NCBI GenBank assembly: GCA_036339585.1
Contig: JAYZAS010000001.1
Span: 62,001 to 126,000, forward strand
Source: Pseudomonadota bacterium
GTDB taxonomy: Bacteria; Pseudomonadota; Alphaproteobacteria; UBA8366
Direction of reading: 5' to 3'
DNA length: 64,000 bases
The notes below the pieces were generated by a model. That model was not told the DNA's origin, did no database searches, and was given only the letters and a program-made list of their open reading frames with translations. A program made the translations under genes and the position numbers. This document shows positions 2,041-12,033 of this stretch, piece by piece. Every line of letters begins with the position of its first letter. The first letter of the stretch is position 1.

Positions 2041-3411
2041 TTGGACCAGACTGCCAATAAGCTGGTAACATTTTCCAGAAAACTACAGTTCGAGGATTTA
2101 AGCCGGCGTGCGATTGTGAATGCTAAAGCAAGGCTAATCAATTGCCTTGGTGTAAGTATTGGAGCGCATAATGCTCCTACAGTAAAAATAATACGCAAGC
2201 TTGCCTACCCGAGCGCAGCTGGCCCTTTAGCGCGTACCTTCACAACACTAACCCCAACGACACCCGATCTCGCTGCTTTTGTGAATTCCGCGATGACCCG
2301 ATACCTTGATATGGCTGACACCTATATAAGAGAGTCTGTAAGTCATCCAGCCGATGCTTTGCCGGGGTTGCTCGCAATTGCTGAAGCAGAGAATTGTTCT
2401 GGTAAAGACTTTCTGCTCTCCCTGATCATAGCCTACGAGATTCAGTGCCGGTATGTAGATGTAGTGCCAGTCAATCAACTTGGTTGGGATCAAACTCCAA
2501 TCGTCGCTATGGGAACAGCACTCGGTGCAGGCCGACTTTTAAACTTAGACAAAGCTCAAATGCTAAATGCTCTGTCACTTGCATTAGTTCCTAATGTCTC
2601 CTTAAATCAAACAAGAACCGGCCGTATTTCAATGTGGAAAGGAATGGCTGGTCCAGCAGGCGCAAGACAAGGAGTGTTTGCTGCACTACTAGCACGAGAG
2701 GGTATAAGTGGACCGGACCAGCCATTTGACGGTGATTACGGCGTTTGGAAACAAATGTTCGGAGAGCAATACCAAATTCCCATACCAACTAGGTTCACCA
2801 AGCACACCTTCGCTGTTGAGGAGACTATCATTAAATCCTTTCCAATTCGCTTCAATTGTCATGTACCAACTTTAGCCGCACTTGAATTACGAAAAAAAGT
2901 CAAGGCGCGCGACATAAAGCATTTAGAGATCGAAAGTATCCGTCAAGCTTTTGGACGTTGGATTGATCTGCCAGAATTCTGGAAGCCAACTACCCGGGAA
3001 AGCGCAGACCATTCTTTACCGTTTTGTGTTTCAGTCGCAATGCTTGACGGTAAGATTGTCCCAGAGACATTCGGCGCAGAAAGGTACAAGGATAGAGACG
3101 TTCTATCGCTTATGAAAAAATGTTCGGTGGCACTACCAAACGAATATGCTGAACTTGCATATGAAGTTCGCTGTTGTCGGTTAACTGCAACAACAAAAAC
3201 GGGGAAAAATATCAGCGTTGAAATCAAGATGACACCAAAAGATGACGCGCGCGGGATGCCTAAGAATACCCTCGAGAAAAAATTTAATGATCTCACAAAA
3301 CCTTTTTTAAAATCAACTGCCCGAAAAAAAATCCTTGGTCTTTGCTGGCGCATTAACAAAATGAAATCTGTCGGAAACTTAGTGACCCTTACGGGCGTTG
3401 AAAACACATAA
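2041..3411 (+). CDS. MmgE/PrpD family protein, paralogue 1
   Basis: 456 aa. The family includes 2-methylcitrate dehydratase PrpD, cis-aconitate decarboxylase and iminodisuccinate epimerase. The start is TTG, chosen because AAGGA lies 8 nt upstream and the N-terminus MDQTANKL matches MDRTANKL of the next gene. Likely active-site positions by eye are Asp90/Asp93, His102 (SHPAD), Lys200 (MWKG) and His324 (ADHSLPFC). At 150-151 it has Asp-Gln where PrpD proteins have Asp-His. It is the first gene of the plus-strand run, 8 nt before its closest paralogue. The substrate is unknown; hydratase, decarboxylase and epimerase chemistry are all possible. Confidence 0.9.
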   Translation: MDQTANKLVTFSRKLQFEDLSRRAIVNAKARLINCLGVSIGAHNAPTVKIIRKLAYPSAAGPLARTFTTLTPTTPDLAAFVNSAMTRYLDMADTYIRESVSHPADALPGLLAIAEAENCSGKDFLLSLIIAYEIQCRYVDVVPVNQLGWDQTPIVAMGTALGAGRLLNLDKAQMLNALSLALVPNVSLNQTRTGRISMWKGMAGPAGARQGVFAALLAREGISGPDQPFDGDYGVWKQMFGEQYQIPIPTRFTKHTFAVEETIIKSFPIRFNCHVPTLAALELRKKVKARDIKHLEIESIRQAFGRWIDLPEFWKPTTRESADHSLPFCVSVAMLDGKIVPETFGAERYKDRDVLSLMKKCSVALPNEYAELAYEVRCCRLTATTKTGKNISVEIKMTPKDDARGMPKNTLEKKFNDLTKPFLKSTARKKILGLCWRINKMKSVGNLVTLTGVENT

Positions 3412-3419
3412 GAAGTATA

Positions 3420-4787
3420 ATGGATAGAACCGCCAACAAACTTGTCAACTTTGCAACAAAAGTCTCCTTTTCTAAGCTGCCCCATAGCGCAATTGATTCT
3501 GCAAAGGAACGTATATTGGATTCAATAGGGGTAGCGATGGCAGCGTTCTTTGCCGAGCCAGTACGGATATCGCGTCGATTAGCAAATCCGATATCCGGAG
3601 GGCCAACAGCAAGGCTTTTTGGTACGCTAACTCCAACCTCCCCAGAACGCGCAACTTTTGTAAATAGTGCCATGATACGTTACCTTGATATGAATGATGC
3701 ATATGTCAAAGCTGGGGTGAGCCATCCATCCGACGTCATTGCTGGACTAATCTCAACAGCGGAAGCTGAGAAAAAAAGTGGAAAAGATCTCCTAGCAGCT
3801 ATCACCACTGCCTATGAAATCCAATGCCGCCTCGCAGATGTAGTACCAAATGATAAATTTGGATGGGATCAACCATTTCAGGTTGTTCAAGGTGCCGCTC
3901 TTGGTGCAGGCCGTTTGCTAGAACTTTCAAAAGATGAAATGCATCATGCACTATCATTAGCTCTCATCCCAAATATGGCGCTTAATCAAACTCGAACTGG
4001 CACTCTATCTATGTGGAAGGGATTATCTGGTGCGAATGCTGCGCGACAAGGTGTATTTGCTGCTTACCTTGCGCGCGCTGGCATGACTTGCGCTGAGGAC
4101 CCTTTTGAGGGTGAAATGGGTGTCTGGAACCAACTCATGAAAGGTACGCGATATGATGTGCCTATCCCAAAGACGTTGGCCAATCACAAATTTGGTGTCC
4201 AGCAAAGCGATATCAAGACCTTTCCTGTCCGATACGGCTGCCTTGTCCCGGTATCCACAGCACTGGATATGCGCGAAAAAATTGATGATGCCTTGAACAT
4301 TGAATTTCTTAAGATCGATACCTACGACCAAGCCTTTGGACGATGGATCGGGGTCCCTGAGTTTTGGAAACCCTTGACACGTGAATCCGCGAATCATTCG
4401 CTTCCTTTTTGCACCGCGGTTGCACTTATAGACGGGGATATCACCCCTGCGACTTTTGAAAAAAAGAGGTTCCTTGACCCTGATGTCAACGCATTAATGA
4501 GTAAAATTACAATTGAGCTGAACCCAGGATTTACTGCCGCAGCGCCAGAAGATAGAAATTGCCGTATGGCAGCAAGGTTACCGTCTGCAAGGGAAATTGT
4601 GACCGAAAGATGTCAGACTCAAGCTCTTTCCGAGCGAGGATTACCAAGACGGCATCTTGAGAAGAAATTCAACAAAATGAGTAGCGGTATCCTTAATGAA
4701 GCAAGCCGTCGAAAACTGGCAGATGCCATATGGCACCTTGAGGAGATGGACCGAGTTGAGGAATTGGTCAGCTTAACGGGCGTGTAG
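3420..4787 (+). CDS. MmgE/PrpD family protein, paralogue 2
   Basis: 455 aa, aligning in register with the preceding gene for the first 240 residues (SHPSD at 101-105, DQ at 150-151, MWKG at 198-201). The His motif is ANHSLPFC (His326), with Asn instead of the Asp found in the other paralogues. The tandem order and 8-nt gap indicate a local duplication with co-translation. Two non-identical but similar proteins might form a heteromer or act on successive or stereoisomeric substrates; this is inference. The C-terminal stretch around residues 380-410 differs more from paralogue 1 than the rest does. Confidence 0.9.
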   Translation: MDRTANKLVNFATKVSFSKLPHSAIDSAKERILDSIGVAMAAFFAEPVRISRRLANPISGGPTARLFGTLTPTSPERATFVNSAMIRYLDMNDAYVKAGVSHPSDVIAGLISTAEAEKKSGKDLLAAITTAYEIQCRLADVVPNDKFGWDQPFQVVQGAALGAGRLLELSKDEMHHALSLALIPNMALNQTRTGTLSMWKGLSGANAARQGVFAAYLARAGMTCAEDPFEGEMGVWNQLMKGTRYDVPIPKTLANHKFGVQQSDIKTFPVRYGCLVPVSTALDMREKIDDALNIEFLKIDTYDQAFGRWIGVPEFWKPLTRESANHSLPFCTAVALIDGDITPATFEKKRFLDPDVNALMSKITIELNPGFTAAAPEDRNCRMAARLPSAREIVTERCQTQALSERGLPRRHLEKKFNKMSSGILNEASRRKLADAIWHLEEMDRVEELVSLTGV

Positions 4788-4813: not shown

Positions 4814-5653
4814 ATGACTAGCAGGGCCAATACAAAGATATTCCCAGAAGCAATAGAAGCGCCATTAATGTATTACATTGATGATGGGACACCAGCGGAG
4901 AACCTTACGGGAGACGAGACCGATTCTACACGTATATATCAAGGTAATTACGAACATCGAAAAGTACGGATTCAGAACGCAAGGCCAAGGCAAGAACAAT
5001 TTGCATTAGATATTCATGGTTTCGAGTTTCTCAACCAAAAGACCAAAGTAAAAGATTTTTATAATTCCAAACAAATGCGGGAAGTCTATTACGATGAGAC
5101 AGCAAAACTTGTTCAGTTAGTGTCTGGGGCAACTCGGGTTCATGTTTTTGATCATACGCTGCGCTCTGGTAATAAAGCCGCACGAGAGGGGCAACCGATC
5201 CGCGAGCCGGTGCGGCGTGTTCACAACGACTACACTGAGTGGTCTGGCCCTCAGCGGGTCCATGATTTGCTCCCAAATGAAGCAGACAAGCTTCTAAAAA
5301 ATCGTTTTGCAATTATTCAAGTTTGGAGGGCAATTAATAAGCCGATAAAATCTGATCCACTTTGCATTTGTGACGCGCGTTGTATTGATAAAAAAGAGCT
5401 CTTTCCATCGAGACGGATTTACCCCGATAGGATTGGAGAAACATACGTAGTCACCTATGGTGCCAAGCATAAATGGCTATATTTTCCTGAAATGACGCGC
5501 GATGAAGTGCTCATTTTCAAAGTGTACGACTCAGCAATAGATGGGAAAGCAAGGTGGACAGCACACTCATCATTTCCTCTGCCAAATCAAGATAGTAATA
5601 AACATCCGCGGGAGAGCTGTGAAATGCGAGCATTAGTATTTTTTAGCAAGTGA
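4814..5653 (+). CDS. CmcJ/NvfI-type (AsaB-like) non-haem iron oxygenase family protein
   Basis: 279 aa. The family is best known from fungal and actinobacterial secondary metabolism (CmcJ of cephamycin, NvfI, AsaB), where the characterised members are Fe(II)/2-oxoglutarate hydroxylases or desaturases. Family signatures seen: RRVHNDYT (134-141), an NRFAIIQVWR segment (163-172), WLYFPEM (221-227), EVLIFKVYDS (231-240), ARWTAHSSF (246-254) and RESCEMRALVFF near the C-terminus. His137-x-Asp139 and His251 would make the iron-binding triad. It follows paralogue 2 by 26 nt with a strong GA-rich ribosome-binding region, so it belongs to the same run. A tailoring or oxidising step on the pathway intermediate is the simplest reading. 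Confidence 0.8.
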   Translation: MTSRANTKIFPEAIEAPLMYYIDDGTPAENLTGDETDSTRIYQGNYEHRKVRIQNARPRQEQFALDIHGFEFLNQKTKVKDFYNSKQMREVYYDETAKLVQLVSGATRVHVFDHTLRSGNKAAREGQPIREPVRRVHNDYTEWSGPQRVHDLLPNEADKLLKNRFAIIQVWRAINKPIKSDPLCICDARCIDKKELFPSRRIYPDRIGETYVVTYGAKHKWLYFPEMTRDEVLIFKVYDSAIDGKARWTAHSSFPLPNQDSNKHPRESCEMRALVFFSK

Positions 5654-5721: not shown

Positions 5722-7362
5722 ATGACCAATATGACCGGTGGTCAAGCTATCATCCAAACACTGATAAACCATGATGTTAATACAATCTTTGGCCTGCCAG
5801 GCGTTCAACTCGACAATACCTTCGATGCGCTTTTTGAAGCTCGCAATACCCTTCGGACAATCCATACCCGCCACGAGCAAGGCGCCGCATATATGGCTCT
5901 TGGATATGCTCAGGCGAGTGGCAAAATTGGCGCTTGCATCGTTGGGCCCGGGCCCGGATTATTAAATGCTAGTGCTGCTCTTTGCACTGCATATGGTTCA
6001 AACGTTCCCGTGATATGTATCGCAGGTCAAATTCCCTCCCATCAAATAGGCATTGGCCTTGGAGCAACTCATGAGATTATCGATCAAACAAATGCCATGA
6101 GAGGCGTTGTAAAATGGGTTGGTCGTGCAGATACCCCAGCCGATGCTCCTTCAGTTCTTCACGAGGCTTTTAGTCAAATGCTTAGGGGACGTAAGCAGCC
6201 AGTCGTTTTTGAAATGGCTCCCGATATCATGGGGAAAAAGAGCGATGTTTCTTTGCTTGACGCTGAGAATTATGAAATCGAAACAGATGTGGAAGAGGAC
6301 ATACTTGAAGCTGCGGCAAAGATGCTCGGAGAGGCAGATAAACCTATTATACTCGTCGGTTCGGGTATATTCGGTGCAGAAACAGAATTAAAGAATCTAG
6401 CCGAAATGCTGGAGGCACCAGTCATTATGAGCCGTACAGGCCGCGGCGCACTGACTGATCGCCATTACCTTGCTCAGACCATGATAACAGGCCAAAAATT
6501 GTGGGAAGAGGCAGATGTAGCACTGGTCGTGGGAACACGATTTTCATCGCCCGGATTAGCATGGGGGCGTGAAAAAGAAGTTAAATTAATACGCATTGAT
6601 CCTGACAAGAATCAAGCGAAACTTCCACGTGAGGCCAATATTACTATGGTCACGACTGCAAAAAAAGCGCTGCCATTATTGGAAAGTAGGGTGGGACTTT
6701 ATAACAGAGTTCGTGAAAGCAGAACCACAGAATTAAATGCTGCTAAAAAAGATACCTTAACAAAACTCGAAGCTCTCGAGCCTCAATATGGATTTGGTAA
6801 AGTATTACGTGACACACTTCCAGAGGATGGCATACTTGTTACAGACGTCACTCAGATGGCCACGTTTATGCAAAATTGGTGTCCGATTTATCATCCACGC
6901 ACACTCATTACTCCCGGGTACCAGGCTACCCTCGGGTATGGATATCCTACTGCTCTTGGGGCAAAAGTTGCGTTACCAGATAAAAAGGTCGTTTGTATCT
7001 GTGGTGATGGTGGTTTCATGTTTAATGTGCAAGAGCTTTCATCCGCTGTGGCTCATGGGATCGATGTCGTATGCGTTGTTTTTGCTGACAATGCATACGG
7101 TAATGTAAAGCGTTTCCAAAAAGAGGGATATGGTGGACGTCACATAGGAGTAGATTTACACAATCCAGACTTCGCAAAAATGGCGGAAACATTTGGAATG
7201 GCGGGCTTATATGCAAAAGGACCAGATGCCCTTCGAGCAGCACTTGATGAAAGCATGAATTCGCCCGGGCCAACACTTATTGAGGTGCCTATTGGCGAGG
7301 TGCCTAACACATGGTCCTTAGTCAAGCGACCCTCAAGCGCTGGTAATAAAAGTGATGGATGA
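5722..7362 (+). CDS. Thiamine-diphosphate-dependent enzyme (acetolactate synthase/decarboxylase family)
   Basis: 546 aa with the full three-domain layout: N-terminal pyrimidine-binding domain with the catalytic Glu52 (HTRHEQGAAY), a central domain, and a C-terminal diphosphate-binding domain starting GDGGFMFN at about 428. The family joins or decarboxylates 2-oxo acids. Divergence from IlvB and the absence of a small regulatory subunit gene nearby argue against branched-chain amino acid synthesis. AAGGAAA lies 7 nt before the ATG. The 68-nt gap from the oxygenase gene shows no terminator. Its stop overlaps the start of paralogue 3, suggesting translational coupling. In context it would act on a 2-oxo acid made or used by the neighbouring hydratases and lyase. 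Confidence 0.88.
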   Translation: MTNMTGGQAIIQTLINHDVNTIFGLPGVQLDNTFDALFEARNTLRTIHTRHEQGAAYMALGYAQASGKIGACIVGPGPGLLNASAALCTAYGSNVPVICIAGQIPSHQIGIGLGATHEIIDQTNAMRGVVKWVGRADTPADAPSVLHEAFSQMLRGRKQPVVFEMAPDIMGKKSDVSLLDAENYEIETDVEEDILEAAAKMLGEADKPIILVGSGIFGAETELKNLAEMLEAPVIMSRTGRGALTDRHYLAQTMITGQKLWEEADVALVVGTRFSSPGLAWGREKEVKLIRIDPDKNQAKLPREANITMVTTAKKALPLLESRVGLYNRVRESRTTELNAAKKDTLTKLEALEPQYGFGKVLRDTLPEDGILVTDVTQMATFMQNWCPIYHPRTLITPGYQATLGYGYPTALGAKVALPDKKVVCICGDGGFMFNVQELSSAVAHGIDVVCVVFADNAYGNVKRFQKEGYGGRHIGVDLHNPDFAKMAETFGMAGLYAKGPDALRAALDESMNSPGPTLIEVPIGEVPNTWSLVKRPSSAGNKSDG

Positions 7363-8734
7363 GACAGAAAAAAGGCTTATTAACTTCACCAATAGCATTA
7401 CCTACGATGACCTTTCCCCGGACGTCATCAAGGCAACTAAAATTCGTTTGATTGACTCTTTTGGTTGTGCACTTGGAGCTATAAATGCTCCAACGGCGAA
7501 AGCAGCTGAGAACATCTCGGCGCTGGTAAAAGAAGGGAGAAGCGCTCGCATATTTGGAACACTTAAAAGAGTTTCGGTGGAGCATGCAACCCTAGTTAAT
7601 AGCGCAATGGTGCGCTACCTAGATTTAAGCGACGCCTATTTAATGCGTTCAACAGCACACCCCTCAGATAATATTCCCGGCATCTTAGCAATTGGGGAAT
7701 CTATTAACGCGTCACCTCAAGACATTCTTACAGCAATAATCATTAGTTATGAAGTTCAGATTCGTCTTTGCGATACAGCCCCCTTCAACGCAGAGGGTTA
7801 TGACCAACCCGTGTGCTCTGCTAGCGCAATGGCATTAGCTTCTGCCCACTTACTCAACCTTAACACAGAACAAATGAGGCATGCAGTGGCGATTGCTGCC
7901 ACCGCCAATATTGCGCTTAATCAGACCCGGCGCGGCAACCTATCAATGTGGAAAGGAATGGCCGGCCCGAATGCGGCACGCGAGGGTGTTTTTGCAGCAT
8001 TGTTAGCTGAGCACGGAATGAGCGGACCCGAAGATCCATTTGAAGGGCTTCATGGTCTTTATGCAAAAACAGTCGGCACCTTCGACCGAATCCAAATTCC
8101 TAGTACGTTCAAGCAAAGCACAGTATTTGCACTGCAAAAAACTAATGTTAAAAAATTTCCGGTGCGAGATGCCATTCAAGTCCCCATCGTTGCTGCTTTA
8201 AAGCTCTTTAAGGACATTAATGCTTCTGAAATAAAAAACCTAAAAATATACACTTACCGGCATGGGTTTTATAAATGGATTGATCAAGATGCGACTTGGG
8301 CACCGAAGACCCGCGAAACCGCAGACCATTCACTACCATTCTGCGTTGCTGCCACTTTATTAGATGGAACTTTGAATGCCATGAGCTTCGAAAATAGTCG
8401 TTACCTTCGAAAAGATGTGCGCACACTCATTAGTAAAACCGAAATTATTTTTGATGACGCATTTGATGAAGTTGCCCCAGAAACACGTTCTTGTCGACTC
8501 GAAGCAACTCTAAAAACTGGCGAAAGTTTTAAGGCAGAGTATACCCAGACCCCAGAAGATATTCTCCGGGGTCCCGACGTTAAGTGTGTAGAGACTAAAT
8601 TTCGAACTCTAACAGAAGGGGTAATTAAAAAACCACAACAAGACAAAATTTTGGATGCACTCTGGAATTTCGAGAAATTAGAAAGCATTCAAAGCCTCAT
8701 TAGTTTGACACGTGCAAGTTTTAACTCGTTTTAG
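7355..8734 (+). CDS. MmgE/PrpD family protein, paralogue 3
   Basis: 459 aa. The ATG at 7355 was chosen over a GTG at 7352 because it yields MDETEKRL, parallel to the other two paralogues. It overlaps the thiamine-diphosphate gene by 8 nt. Conserved positions sit in the same register as paralogues 1 and 2: Asp90, Asp93, His102 (AHPSD), Asp150-Gln151, Lys200 (MWKG) and a DHSLPFC motif. It is more diverged from paralogues 1 and 2 than they are from each other, so the duplication that produced it is older. It ends 14 nt inside the convergent aldo/keto reductase gene. Confidence 0.9.
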   Translation: MDETEKRLINFTNSITYDDLSPDVIKATKIRLIDSFGCALGAINAPTAKAAENISALVKEGRSARIFGTLKRVSVEHATLVNSAMVRYLDLSDAYLMRSTAHPSDNIPGILAIGESINASPQDILTAIIISYEVQIRLCDTAPFNAEGYDQPVCSASAMALASAHLLNLNTEQMRHAVAIAATANIALNQTRRGNLSMWKGMAGPNAAREGVFAALLAEHGMSGPEDPFEGLHGLYAKTVGTFDRIQIPSTFKQSTVFALQKTNVKKFPVRDAIQVPIVAALKLFKDINASEIKNLKIYTYRHGFYKWIDQDATWAPKTRETADHSLPFCVAATLLDGTLNAMSFENSRYLRKDVRTLISKTEIIFDDAFDEVAPETRSCRLEATLKTGESFKAEYTQTPEDILRGPDVKCVETKFRTLTEGVIKKPQQDKILDALWNFEKLESIQSLISLTRASFNSF

Positions 8735-9731
8735 CAAAGCGCCCCGTTGGCGGATATCTTGGGTCAAGGAAATTGAAGGAAGTTGCATACCCACTTGCGC
8801 ACAATGAATTCACAAGAGCTTCATCTTCTGCTGTAAATTCTTTCCCCAAAAAACCGCAGTAGCTTTCCAAATGCACCGAAGTGCGTGGGCCCACAACAAC
8901 ACTCGTCACTAGTTTATTGTTAAACAACCACAGCATAGCAAAGTCGATTAATGTCATATCTCGATTCTTTATGTGAGCATTTACAGCATCAACAAATTGA
9001 AAATTTGTTTTTCTAAAATCACGCTCAAGAATGCTTTTATCGCCGCGAGCAGCTCGTGAGTCCGGGATTGGTCTTTTCCCGTACTGATACTTTCCTGTAA
9101 GCACGCCGCGCGCGAGTGGCGAGAAAGGCGCCACAGCGATATTGTAATACTCGCAGGCTGGAAGCACGTCATGCTCAGGAATTCGCATCATCGCATTGTA
9201 ATGCGGTTGACACACGATTGGATAAGGTACGCCTATTGTGTCACAGATTCGCATTAACTCTCCAACCTGCCATCCTCGATGATTTGAAAAACCCCAGTGA
9301 AGTGCTTTGCCTGCAGCTATGATATCGCCCATCGCATGGACACTTTCCTTGAGGGGCGTTTCCCAATCGATATGATGCATGTAAAAAATATCGACATAGT
9401 CAGTTTGAAGCCGCCGCAAGCTGTGATCAATTGCTTCAAACATCCATTTCCGGGACAAACCTTTTTTGCGTTTATCGGTGCCGGCCGCCTGTCCAACTTT
9501 TGTAGCCAAGATCCATTCGTCTCGTTCAGAATTAATCAGTTTGCCGATAATTTTTTCAGACGCACCATTAGAATAACCATCAGCTGTGTCAATAAAATTG
9601 ACCCCTAACTGCTTTGCTTTTTCAAGAATGGCCGTTGCCTGACTAAAATCGGTGGTATCCCCAAAATTCATGGTTCCGAGGCAAATCTGGCTAATTTTAA
9701 TTCCACTATTTCCTAACAACTGATATTCCAT
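8721..9731 (-). CDS. Aldo/keto reductase
   Basis: 336 aa TIM-barrel NAD(P)H-dependent oxidoreductase. The catalytic tetrad is visible: Asp48 (FIDTAD), Tyr53 (GYSNG), Lys78 (ATKVG) and His119 or His120 (YMHHID). The ATG at 9731 is preferred to an upstream TTG (9749) because GGAGG lies 7 nt before it. It is convergent with, and overlaps, the third MmgE/PrpD gene, so it is not in that transcript, though it may serve the same pathway by reducing a carbonyl intermediate. Sub-family members range from general detoxification to ketoacid reduction; the substrate is not assignable. Confidence 0.9.
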   Translation of the reverse strand: MEYQLLGNSGIKISQICLGTMNFGDTTDFSQATAILEKAKQLGVNFIDTADGYSNGASEKIIGKLINSERDEWILATKVGQAAGTDKRKKGLSRKWMFEAIDHSLRRLQTDYVDIFYMHHIDWETPLKESVHAMGDIIAAGKALHWGFSNHRGWQVGELMRICDTIGVPYPIVCQPHYNAMMRIPEHDVLPACEYYNIAVAPFSPLARGVLTGKYQYGKRPIPDSRAARGDKSILERDFRKTNFQFVDAVNAHIKNRDMTLIDFAMLWLFNNKLVTSVVVGPRTSVHLESYCGFLGKEFTAEDEALVNSLCASGYATSFNFLDPRYPPTGRFAKTS

Positions 9732-9797
9732 GTTTTTACCTCCCGGCAATATGACACCTCATTAATGGATATGATCAGTACCATCCAAAAACGACAA

Positions 9798-11297
9798 TTA
9801 GAAGATGCCCGATCCCCCACGTTTTAGGACACCGATATCAGCAATGGGATTAATTCCAAACACCTGGTCTGATTTTATATTCGCGAGCTGCTCCATACAA
9901 TCGATGAAGCGGTGTTGTTCATGATCACTTACAACACCAGCTGAAAGCGTCAAAAACTTGGCAATATAATCCTCACGTTTGAATGGCTTTGCACCTTGAG
10001 GGTGCGCGTCGGCAAAAAGAATTTCATCTTCAATAACCCTACCATCTTTGAGTGAAATTCGAACGGCACCGCCAAATGCCTTTTCCTTAGGATCAAGTGA
10101 TAAATAACGTCGCTCCCAAAGATCGTCTTCTTCTGTTTTAATTTTTTTCCAAAGTATTTGTGTCTCGGGGCGATGCGCTCGCTCTTCAGAATATGAGGCT
10201 TCATGATGCCACGCTCCATCTTCAAGTGCTACCGCGAAAATATATGGTAGTGAATGGTCAAGAGTTTCTCGCGAAGCATCCGGCGAATATTTCTGAGGAT
10301 CAGCGGATCCTGATCCAATAACATTGTGGCTATGCTTATTTGTCGTTATCGTGATTTCGGATATGAGCGCTAGGTTTTCGATGCGGCCACGCATTTTGAA
10401 AGCGAGATCAATAAATGCCTGCCCTTGATATTCAGCTGAATGCGCTTTTGTCCATGTTTGAAGTATTGAGTTCCTTGACTCTCCGATATCTGGCAAGTCT
10501 ATTTGATATTCTGTCTTAGCTCCATCAAGAAGCCATGCAATAACACTATCCTCACCCTCATAGATCGGAGAAGGAGCACTCTCGCCACGCATCGCACGGT
10601 CAACAGCCTCAATAGCGAGCTTGGAGGAATGTGCCGGCGCAGCTGATTTCCATGTCGAGATTAATCCTTTTCTTGACTGACGCGTCGAACAACACACATG
10701 CAAGGTCTGATTAATAGCTTGATAAATAACCTCTGGTTCTAATCTTAATAATGCTCCAATGCCTGCGGCCGCAGCCACTCCAGTATGTGCTACATGGTCT
10801 ATTCTATGACTATGCAATTGAATTGATCGCATGAGACATACATGCACTTCGTATGCTGTAACTACTCCTCTAATTATATCGGCCCCAGTTCTGTGCATCT
10901 GTTGGGCGACTGCTAATAGTGGACAGATATTGTCACCTGGGTGACCAAACTCCAAATGCAAGAAGGTATCATGAAAATCAAGCTCACGCACGGCTGTACC
11001 ATTTGCCCATGCTGCCCACTCAGCATGCACCCGGAAATCACTTGATGTCCCGAAAAGCGTTGCCCCATTTGAACGGCGGTGGGATAAAGCCTGGTCACGA
11101 GCTGTTATGACTGGGGAACGATTCAGCGAAGCCATAGCGACTGCCGCATTATCGATGATACGATTGATTACCATCGATTCCACATTTTTTTCGACCGGCA
11201 CCTCATCAGAAGCAAGCAAAGCAAGCTTCCATGCTAGCTCCTCCTCCCGTTTGTGCTTATCCGCTGATGCCCAAACACGAATAATATGATTTTGCAT
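9798..11297 (-). CDS. MmgE/PrpD family protein, 2-methylcitrate dehydratase-like (paralogue 4)
   Basis: 499 aa, longer than the three plus-strand paralogues and of classical PrpD length. It keeps the PrpD-type motifs: an Asp-rich stretch then EFGHPGDN (116-123), Asp167-His168 (RIDHV), Lys217 (STWKSAA) and LDHSLPY (His348). The ATG at 11297 has GGAG 7 nt upstream; a longer reading frame starting at 11336 has no such site and would overlap the divergent SRAP gene. With the Cys-bearing lyase at 922-1836 it could make a methylcitrate-cycle-like dehydratase/lyase pair, but no methylcitrate synthase is in the window. Confidence 0.88.
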   Translation of the reverse strand: MQNHIIRVWASADKHKREEELAWKLALLASDEVPVEKNVESMVINRIIDNAAVAMASLNRSPVITARDQALSHRRSNGATLFGTSSDFRVHAEWAAWANGTAVRELDFHDTFLHLEFGHPGDNICPLLAVAQQMHRTGADIIRGVVTAYEVHVCLMRSIQLHSHRIDHVAHTGVAAAAGIGALLRLEPEVIYQAINQTLHVCCSTRQSRKGLISTWKSAAPAHSSKLAIEAVDRAMRGESAPSPIYEGEDSVIAWLLDGAKTEYQIDLPDIGESRNSILQTWTKAHSAEYQGQAFIDLAFKMRGRIENLALISEITITTNKHSHNVIGSGSADPQKYSPDASRETLDHSLPYIFAVALEDGAWHHEASYSEERAHRPETQILWKKIKTEEDDLWERRYLSLDPKEKAFGGAVRISLKDGRVIEDEILFADAHPQGAKPFKREDYIAKFLTLSAGVVSDHEQHRFIDCMEQLANIKSDQVFGINPIADIGVLKRGGSGIF

Positions 11298-11334
11298 GGT
11301 GAATCTCCGTGATTTTTTTGTCATTATGCATGGC

Positions 11335-12033
11335 ATGTGCGGACGTTATACTATCTCATCCTCTTTGGTGGAAATCAGAGACCTATTCCATATTGATAGC
11401 GGTATATCGAACATTATCAATATTGAACCACGATACAACGTTGCACCAACACAACTTGTGCCAGTTGTTCATGTGTCCAACAAACGTAATGAACTGATGT
11501 CTTCGTGTTGGGGACTAAATACGCCTTGGTCTCATTCTAACAAAAAGACTGGCAAACTAATTAACGCAAGGTCAGAAACTTTACACCGCAAAACAGCATT
11601 TCGAGAAGCCGTCAAGTACCGGCGCTGCCTAATTCCAGCAGACGGATACTACGAATGGACAGCAGAAGACGGCAGAAAGAAACAGCCTTGGCTTATACAT
11701 CCCCAGCACGAAAAACTCTTCGCCTTCGCAGGAATTTGGGAACCTTATACTAACATGGATGGTAAAATTTCTACTGCTTTCGCTATCGTAACAACCAAGG
11801 CATCACCATTAATTGCGCATATTCATCACCGAATGCCTGTGATTGTAAACATCAAAGATTACGCCACTTGGCTTTCTGCTCCAGCCACGGAACTCTTCTC
11901 AATTTTAAAACCCTACTCCAAACCTATTTGTCTACACAGAGTCTCCAACAGGGTTAATAACGTAAGAAATGATGACAAAAATCTGCTAGCACCGATTTCT
12001 CAAAAAATACCCGAACAGTTGAGCCTCCTCTAG
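11335..12033 (+). CDS. SOS response-associated peptidase (SRAP/HMCES/YedK family)
   Basis: 232 aa. SRAP proteins bind abasic sites in single-stranded DNA and form a covalent thiazolidine bond through Cys2, which becomes N-terminal after Met removal. The start was set at MCGRYTI (11335) for that reason, not at the upstream frame-open GTG/ATG codons. Conserved NARSET, GYYEW (catalytic Glu) and HHRMPVI (His) are all present, so the protein should be active. Only 37 bp separate it from the divergent PrpD-like gene. It converges with the TrmJ-like gene by a 4-nt overlap. Confidence 0.93.
   Translation: MCGRYTISSSLVEIRDLFHIDSGISNIINIEPRYNVAPTQLVPVVHVSNKRNELMSSCWGLNTPWSHSNKKTGKLINARSETLHRKTAFREAVKYRRCLIPADGYYEWTAEDGRKKQPWLIHPQHEKLFAFAGIWEPYTNMDGKISTAFAIVTTKASPLIAHIHHRMPVIVNIKDYATWLSAPATELFSILKPYSKPICLHRVSNRVNNVRNDDKNLLAPISQKIPEQLSLL

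Follow-up and report, generated by a model that had tools for sequence, protein, structure and literature searches.

Two well-known routes serve as model schemes for the locus described here, the second half of the 2-methylcitrate pathway with its PrpD-AcnD-PrpB sequence, and the conversion by 2,3-dimethylmaleate hydratase (DmdAB) together with 2,3-dimethylmalate lyase, which belongs to nicotinate fermentation. CmcJ proper is known from cephamycin 7-methoxylation, where it works with the partner methyltransferase CmcI in a β-lactam cluster. In fungi, according to the accessible text of the reports, maleidride clusters bring together 2-methylcitrate dehydratase-like enzymes and AsaB-like oxygenases, and 44% of the known and putative clusters contain at least one AsaB-like oxygenase (PMC8851701, PMC9890510).

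The present locus lies at the start of a 64,000-nucleotide stretch of DNA from a marine alphaproteobacterium, referred to here as the window, and the cluster probably breaks down a small branched organic acid. Five genes on the plus strand form a compact run, in the order PrpDa (2041-3411), PrpDb (3420-4787), oxygenase (4814-5653), ThDP enzyme (5722-7362) and PrpDc (7352-8734), with gaps of 8, 26, 68 and −11 bp, which confirms the placement of the oxygenase between MmgE/PrpD and ThDP genes given in the preliminary description. PrpDa and PrpDb are local duplicates of the MmgE/PrpD family (Pfam search and tree), to which PrpDc also belongs (PF03972/PF19305). Across a divergent intergenic region (1837-2040, from the ORF coordinates), the minus strand carries a lyase of the PEP mutase/isocitrate lyase family (922-1836, PF13714) and a LeuC/homoaconitase-family large subunit (1-910, TIGR01343), which overruns the window and is whole at L040:9658-10911, as well as a LeuD small subunit outside the window (L040:9139-9648, minus strand). 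Downstream of the run are an aldo/keto reductase (8721-9749, minus strand, PF00248), which is syntenic in both genera that carry the cluster, and a long MmgE/PrpD protein of 512 amino acids (9798-11336, minus strand). The preliminary description had made no mention of the divergent lyase-LeuC-LeuD operon, the downstream reductase or this fourth PrpD. No transporter or regulator was found among the cluster genes scanned.

The oxygenase ORF encodes 279 amino acids from an ATG start that is preceded by a purine-rich stretch. It matches the NCBIfam model NF041278 (CmcJ_NvfI_EfuI) with 289.2 bits against a cut-off of 80 and over its full length (residues 17-277 on profile positions 3-263 of 263), and it is a new member of this already known family, as had been proposed. 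A Pfam search of the protein returned nothing at or below 0.001, and membership in PhyH was rejected since a PhyH search of the whole genome gave no match at 4814-5653. Sequence matches in the PDB were 7eus (9e-40), which is CTB9 according to the Foldseek listing and has a sister entry with pre-cercosporin as ligand, and NvfI (7de2, 6.6e-28); an open-access literature search for NF041278 or PDB 7EUS by name found nothing useful. An AlphaFold model built from 11 sequences (mean pLDDT 87.7, pTM 0.86) gave 12 Foldseek matches at E ≤ 0.001, 10 of them CTB9 (TM 0.82-0.83, 34-35% identity) or NvfI (TM 0.80-0.85, 26-28% identity), and the other two PtlH with a TM of only 0.41-0.42. The predicted fold is thus a double-stranded β-helix like those of NvfI and CTB9 (TM 0.80-0.85 at the given pLDDT). 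The metal ligands His137, Asp139 and His251 align with positions 135, 137 and 250 of NvfI, and the C-terminal Arg266 and Arg272 align with its Arg265 and Arg271; all five residues are invariant across the 11 sequences. From its family, modeled fold and metal ligands, the enzyme is predicted to be Fe(II)/2-oxoglutarate-dependent. The substrate-loop and contact residues of NvfI were also sought by alignment and are replaced in the bacterial enzyme, with S114, Y116, F127, H138 and W199 of the NvfI pocket corresponding to D113, T115, I129, Y140 and R201. The iron triad of NvfI is given as His135-His137-Asp250 in the accessible text of its report (PMC8292354), which looks like a slip in the printed order, because the aligned chain shows Asp at position 137 and His at position 250.

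The neighboring enzymes resemble those of the model schemes in type. The ThDP enzyme is acetolactate synthase- or 2-oxo acid decarboxylase-like; it scores 678.5 bits against NF006122 (PRK08266, cut-off 571), a model named 'hypothetical protein', and the solved structures closest to it are acetolactate synthases. The lyase carries a KRCGH loop, which we take to be a lyase-type motif; its closest solved structure is petal death protein (PDB 1zlp, 170.7 bits), followed by methylisocitrate lyases, and 3fa3, a 2,3-dimethylmalate lyase, is among its PDB matches. It reaches 218.9 bits with the prpB model, under the equivalog cut-off of 354.4. LeuC scores 410 bits with TIGR01343 of the homoaconitase family (cut-off 385.7), and LeuD lies above the LeuD/DmdB cut-off. 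The long PrpD is related to the actinobacterial-type 2-methylcitrate dehydratase model NF042438, yet at 728.9 bits it remains under the cut-off of 950, and PrpDa-c reach at most 166 of these 950 bits. Two assignments of the whole locus were considered and rejected. Phosphonate chemistry by a PEP mutase with a ThDP decarboxylase is contradicted by the KRCGH loop of the lyase and by a PEP mutase score below cut-off, and the methylcitrate cycle proper is contradicted by the scores of the PrpB-type lyase, PrpDa-c and long PrpD just given and by the presence of PrpB-like lyases and AcnA elsewhere. The latter, two PrpB-like lyases (252 bits, cut-off 354) that adjoin an AcnA-type aconitase in the same genome (L136:14087-18759), are likelier to carry out ordinary methylisocitrate cleavage. 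The lyase is accompanied by a standalone CinA/MoCF-domain gene, both in the syntenic loci of the three genera introduced below (L040:2296-6315; L130:15535-19466) and in another family (f108), where this gene directly adjoins a 63% identical lyase (L092, L094, L095); no LeuC or LeuD was seen near that lyase on the stretch.

The order oxygenase-ThDP-PrpDc is kept in five genomes of two genera, the genus of the window (g1) and a second one (g4). The oxygenases of the other two g1 genomes, G001 and G002, are 92-93% and 84-85% identical to that of the window, and those of the g4 genomes G005 and G009 are 65-66% identical. PrpDa and PrpDb are missing from g4, except for one truncated PrpDb beside the oxygenase in G009 (L046:10429-10848); a truncated second lyase occupies the same gap in G005 (L012:9443-9850). 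The locus gains and loses duplicates. Two genomes of a third genus, g2 (G003 and G007), have a syntenic locus with AlkP, CinA, two class II aldolases, LLM, LeuD, LeuC, lyase and PrpD, and neither the oxygenase nor the ThDP enzyme was found on this 19.5-kb stretch. In a tree of 45 PrpD proteins, a subset of those encoded by these genomes, the g2 PrpD copies (L130, L131) group with PrpDc (99/98), PrpDa and PrpDb group together (93/87), and all of these form one clade (100/100), which makes PrpDc the orthologue of the only PrpD at the g2 locus. From the g2 synteny and this tree, LeuCD-lyase-PrpDc is a shared core, and the oxygenase and ThDP pair was either added next to PrpDc in the lineage of g1 and g4 or lost in g2; since both g2 genomes have LeuD-LeuC-lyase-PrpDc without the pair, the core stands alone. 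Orthologues of the ThDP enzyme occur elsewhere in five g2 and g3 genomes (78% identical in g2, 67-69% in g3), in one case (L080) near a DctP-type gene and a carbon-nitrogen hydrolase and in another (L082) near an LLM gene. The stretches fetched around them, of which L084 ends beside the gene, contain none of the other cluster genes, so the ThDP enzyme is not bound to this pathway. Conservation of the locus is also weaker functional evidence than it looks, as the five genomes are close relatives and the whole region is syntenic.

The oxygenase is under purifying selection, with dN/dS of 0.11-0.23 in three genome pairs. Among the 11 genes compared, it shows the lowest amino-acid identity and the highest dN/dS in both g1 pairs, and in the g4 pair its dN/dS ranks fourth among the nine genes present.

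MmgE/PrpD genes are extraordinarily abundant in these bacteria. There are 27 matches to PF03972 in the 2.79-Mb genome of the window (two of which are pieces of one gene, broken by an in-frame stop at G000:C4:221010-221558), 24 in G002 (3.1 Mb) and 45 in G005 (3.7 Mb), such that at most about 13% of the first and 19% of the last genome, an upper bound given that contig ends were not trimmed, is within 10 kb of a PrpD. This resembles the expanded catabolic paralogue families reported for marine SAR202 bacteria, insofar as the accessible parts of those papers describe them, and no mention of MmgE/PrpD was found in those parts (PMC5395668 and related papers). A PrpD neighbor is weak evidence because such genes are so numerous. 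In the taxonomic family of the window (11 genomes) there are 26 oxygenase matches, and nine of the 20 stretches fetched carry a PrpD; these nine represent only three tree clades and have to be set against the genome background of 13-19%. One other oxygenase has a ThDP neighbor (L057, 39% identical), with an MFS gene between them. Stronger evidence than proximity to a PrpD is provided by the spacing of the genes, by the presence of oxygenase-ThDP-PrpDc in g4 despite the absence of PrpDa and PrpDb, and by purifying selection.

The oxygenase family is widespread among bacteria and its surroundings are varied. Matches at E ≤ 1e-40 were found in 68 of 385 sampled alphaproteobacterial genomes, including that of the window, and no other genome in a phylum sample of 398 had a match at E ≤ 1e-70. 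In the 384 other genomes of the class, no oxygenase match lies within 20 kb of a ThDP (E ≤ 1e-100) or lyase (E ≤ 1e-60) match among the best three ThDP and best six lyase candidates per genome, a check that would miss neighbors split between contigs, and many of the genomes are in many contigs. At the genome level, among these other genomes of the class, the oxygenase is more frequent where there is a lyase match at E ≤ 1e-60 (9/12 versus 58/372 genomes, Fisher p 1e-5), but also where there is the ThDP enzyme (16/28 versus 51/356, p 8e-7); both counts include the effects of kinship and of a generally catabolic lifestyle, and they are not used as evidence. The oxygenase tree contains 50 sequences after removal of rows L008-L012, L020-L039, L114 and L115, of which L010-L012 share contigs with L042, L043 and L045, while L008, L009 and L020-L039 are short stretches of genes covered elsewhere, a few of which were not fetched again; the placement of two fungal segments and L079, which are on long branches, is not used. 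The copies from the five clusters group together (100/100), with L013 and L015 as sisters (94/92); in these two a Rieske-type gene precedes the oxygenase, and the other neighbors scanned (PriA, nucleotidyltransferase) give no hint of a pathway. One step further out, a clade of 13 rows (98/97) also takes in L018, L099 and four betaproteobacterial genes, whose loci contain branched-chain-type ABC transporter and 3-hydroxyisobutyrate dehydrogenase-like genes (identified by Pfam on L017 and by similarity in the other three). A second copy in the genome of the window (47% identical) is near CoA transferase, acyl-CoA dehydrogenase, acyl-CoA synthetase, LLM and hydantoinase genes. In a table of 46 loci (L012-L019 and L040-L079 without L042 and L045, and so without the G001 copy), with labels taken from family searches on one member each, CoA-transferase III genes were found at 10, LLM monooxygenases at 10 and acyl-CoA dehydrogenases at seven. 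Hence part of the bacterial loci look catabolic from their gene content and others show no pathway. The preliminary description had left its linkage of the oxygenase to these neighbors to be decided by a family tree, and the answer is divided: inside the taxonomic family the link is conserved, and outside it the neighbors of the nearest relatives differ.

The reading we prefer, to which we assign a probability of about 0.48, is that the oxygenase is an accessory enzyme that lets further substrates into a dehydratase/hydratase/lyase pathway acting on a branched or alkylated acid of the malate or citrate type. The older catabolic module would comprise the PrpD-type dehydratase, the LeuC/LeuD hydratase and the C-C lyase of the PEP mutase/isocitrate lyase family, into which the oxygenase and the ThDP enzyme were recruited together. 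The oxygenase would hydroxylate an unactivated carbon of the branched or alkylated acid and so allow it to enter the core, PrpDc would dehydrate the hydroxy acid to a substituted maleate, and LeuCD would add water back on the other carbon. The 2-alkylmalate or isocitrate-like acid formed in this way would then be split by the lyase into a 2-oxo acid and a carboxylate; the ThDP enzyme would decarboxylate or ligate the former, and the aldehyde may be reduced by the aldo/keto reductase. What counts for this is the full-length family match and fold of the oxygenase with its invariant ligands, the gene order in two genera and its persistence in g4 without PrpDa and PrpDb, the purifying selection on the oxygenase, the KRCGH loop of the lyase, the LeuD/DmdB score, the separate g2 core and the catabolic appearance of some relatives. 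Against it count the lack of a transporter or regulator among the scanned genes, the close kinship of the genomes, the untied ThDP enzyme, the lack of class-wide proximity among the candidates scored and the fast evolution of the oxygenase in the g1 pairs. An oxidative step, which the preliminary description had deduced from the position of the gene, remains plausible in view of the catalytic residues, the compact operon and the place beside ThDP and PrpDc that is kept in the five genomes. The gene combination was not found in the open-access literature, which is a weak statement.

A less likely alternative is that the oxygenase acts alone in scavenging or detoxification, with compounds that contain sulfur or another heteroatom, such as organosulfur compounds, as possible targets, and does not share the PrpD/lyase pathway. 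Its fast evolution in the g1 pairs and the g2 core that persists without it both agree with this, as do plasmid-borne relatives. Fifteen plasmid records contain a relative, and transporter or other oxygenase genes are present in four of the five that were opened. Two are near TauD, LLM monooxygenase and ABC transporter genes, and the surroundings of one of these two also include EpsC, rhodanese, a CysB-type regulator and a cysteine desulfurase encapsulin; for a third, an aliphatic sulfonate-type ABC transporter is 4-6 kb away, and a fourth is near ABC transporter and LLM genes. These relatives are only 30-47% identical, however, and the fifth plasmid locus (L142) has no such neighbor and no visible pathway. 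At the locus itself, no sulfur gene was identified among the proteins scanned, the oxygenase is tightly packed (gaps of 26 and 68 bp), and it adjoins ThDP-PrpDc in g4 even where PrpDa and PrpDb are missing. The organosulfur-like plasmid neighborhoods, found in Variovorax (L138, NZ_LR594673), Paraburkholderia (L139, AP028202) and Caballeronia (L141, NZ_CP084288), hint at a sulfur-scavenging branch of the CmcJ/NvfI family, and an open-access search for bacterial CmcJ with sulfur starvation found nothing.

The preliminary description also raised the prospect that the pathway makes rather than degrades a small molecule, with the oxygenase presumably as a tailoring enzyme, and this we consider improbable. 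The solved relatives CTB9 and NvfI do act in fungal biosynthesis, as far as their names and titles indicate, and maleidride clusters combine the same two enzyme types in the reports cited above. Against this, PKS, NRPS, citrate synthase, CoA ligase and methyltransferase are absent from the eight window proteins scanned around the oxygenase, as is any β-lactam gene of the CmcJ-proper setting; no core synthase (PKS, NRPS, terpene or alkylcitrate synthase) was found in these and eight upstream L040 proteins, and no citrate synthase-type gene among the locus proteins scanned in the window and upstream on L040. The replacement of the substrate-contact residues of NvfI also argues against it, and the claim finds no support in a family present in 68 of 385 genomes, with many catabolic-looking neighborhoods, in a genome with 27 PrpD matches. 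Because bacterial members are common and their neighborhoods varied, the family name says little about secondary metabolism here and is not evidence for an antibiotic-like product, contrary to the weight it had been given; among 10 ORFs of at least 800 amino acids in 53 oxygenase loci, seven were scanned, six belonging to families other than PKS/NRPS and one having no match, and the other three overlap scanned or annotated genes. An NCBI label derived from secondary-metabolism enzymes and attached to a common bacterial family is a naming trap that invites a wrong inference about the direction of a pathway.

We attach similarly little probability to degradation of an alkylmaleate or alkylcitrate, with the oxygenase opening the side chain, PrpD and LeuCD moving water across the substituted maleate and the lyase splitting it. 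Such a module would run as the degradative counterpart of fungal maleidride monomer formation, where PrpD-like dehydratases and AsaB-like oxygenases serve synthesis. Least probable of all is that the PrpD and oxygenase genes are neighbors by chance, as the 27 and 45 PrpD matches, the roughly 13% and 19% of the genome near one and the PrpDs of unrelated clades near other oxygenase paralogues (L059, L060, L068, L077) might suggest, since this is opposed by the operon-like spacing and the oxygenase-ThDP-PrpDc order in two genera.

These related lineages with their dozens of MmgE/PrpD genes offer a small comparison, the same hydratase/lyase locus with and without the oxygenase-ThDP pair, and an acid that is usable by the carriers only would point to the substrate of an uncharacterized bacterial branch of the family.

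In comparison with known systems, the oxygenase shares the fold, the HxD...H ligands, the C-terminal arginines and the full-length profile match with CmcJ/NvfI/AsaB-type enzymes, but it belongs to a bacterial clade and is found in a lyase operon rather than in a polyketide, terpenoid or β-lactam cluster. As described in the accessible reports, fungal maleidride clusters likewise combine a PrpD-related dehydratase with an AsaB-like oxygenase, but they are biosynthetic and contain a PKS and an alkylcitrate synthase where the bacterial locus has a lyase and a hydratase; this pairing is at most a speculative lead on the substrate class, by analogy, and not evidence of kinship with those clusters. 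The second half of the 2-methylcitrate pathway (PrpD, AcnD or AcnB, PrpB) also places a dehydratase, an aconitase-family hydratase and a lyase side by side, whereas here the hydratase is of the LeuC/LeuD type instead of AcnD, and the lyase, PrpDa-c and the long PrpD are all under the equivalog cut-offs. The DmdAB and dimethylmalate lyase system is similar in that a LeuC/LeuD-type hydratase adjoins a lyase of the PEP mutase/isocitrate lyase family, an arrangement that does not itself show the substrate, and both the LeuD score above the LeuD/DmdB cut-off and the presence of 3fa3 among the lyase matches are in line with this. The locus described here differs in that an O2-dependent enzyme, a PrpD and a ThDP enzyme accompany the hydratase, and in that its lyase has nearer relatives in petal death protein and the methylisocitrate lyases.
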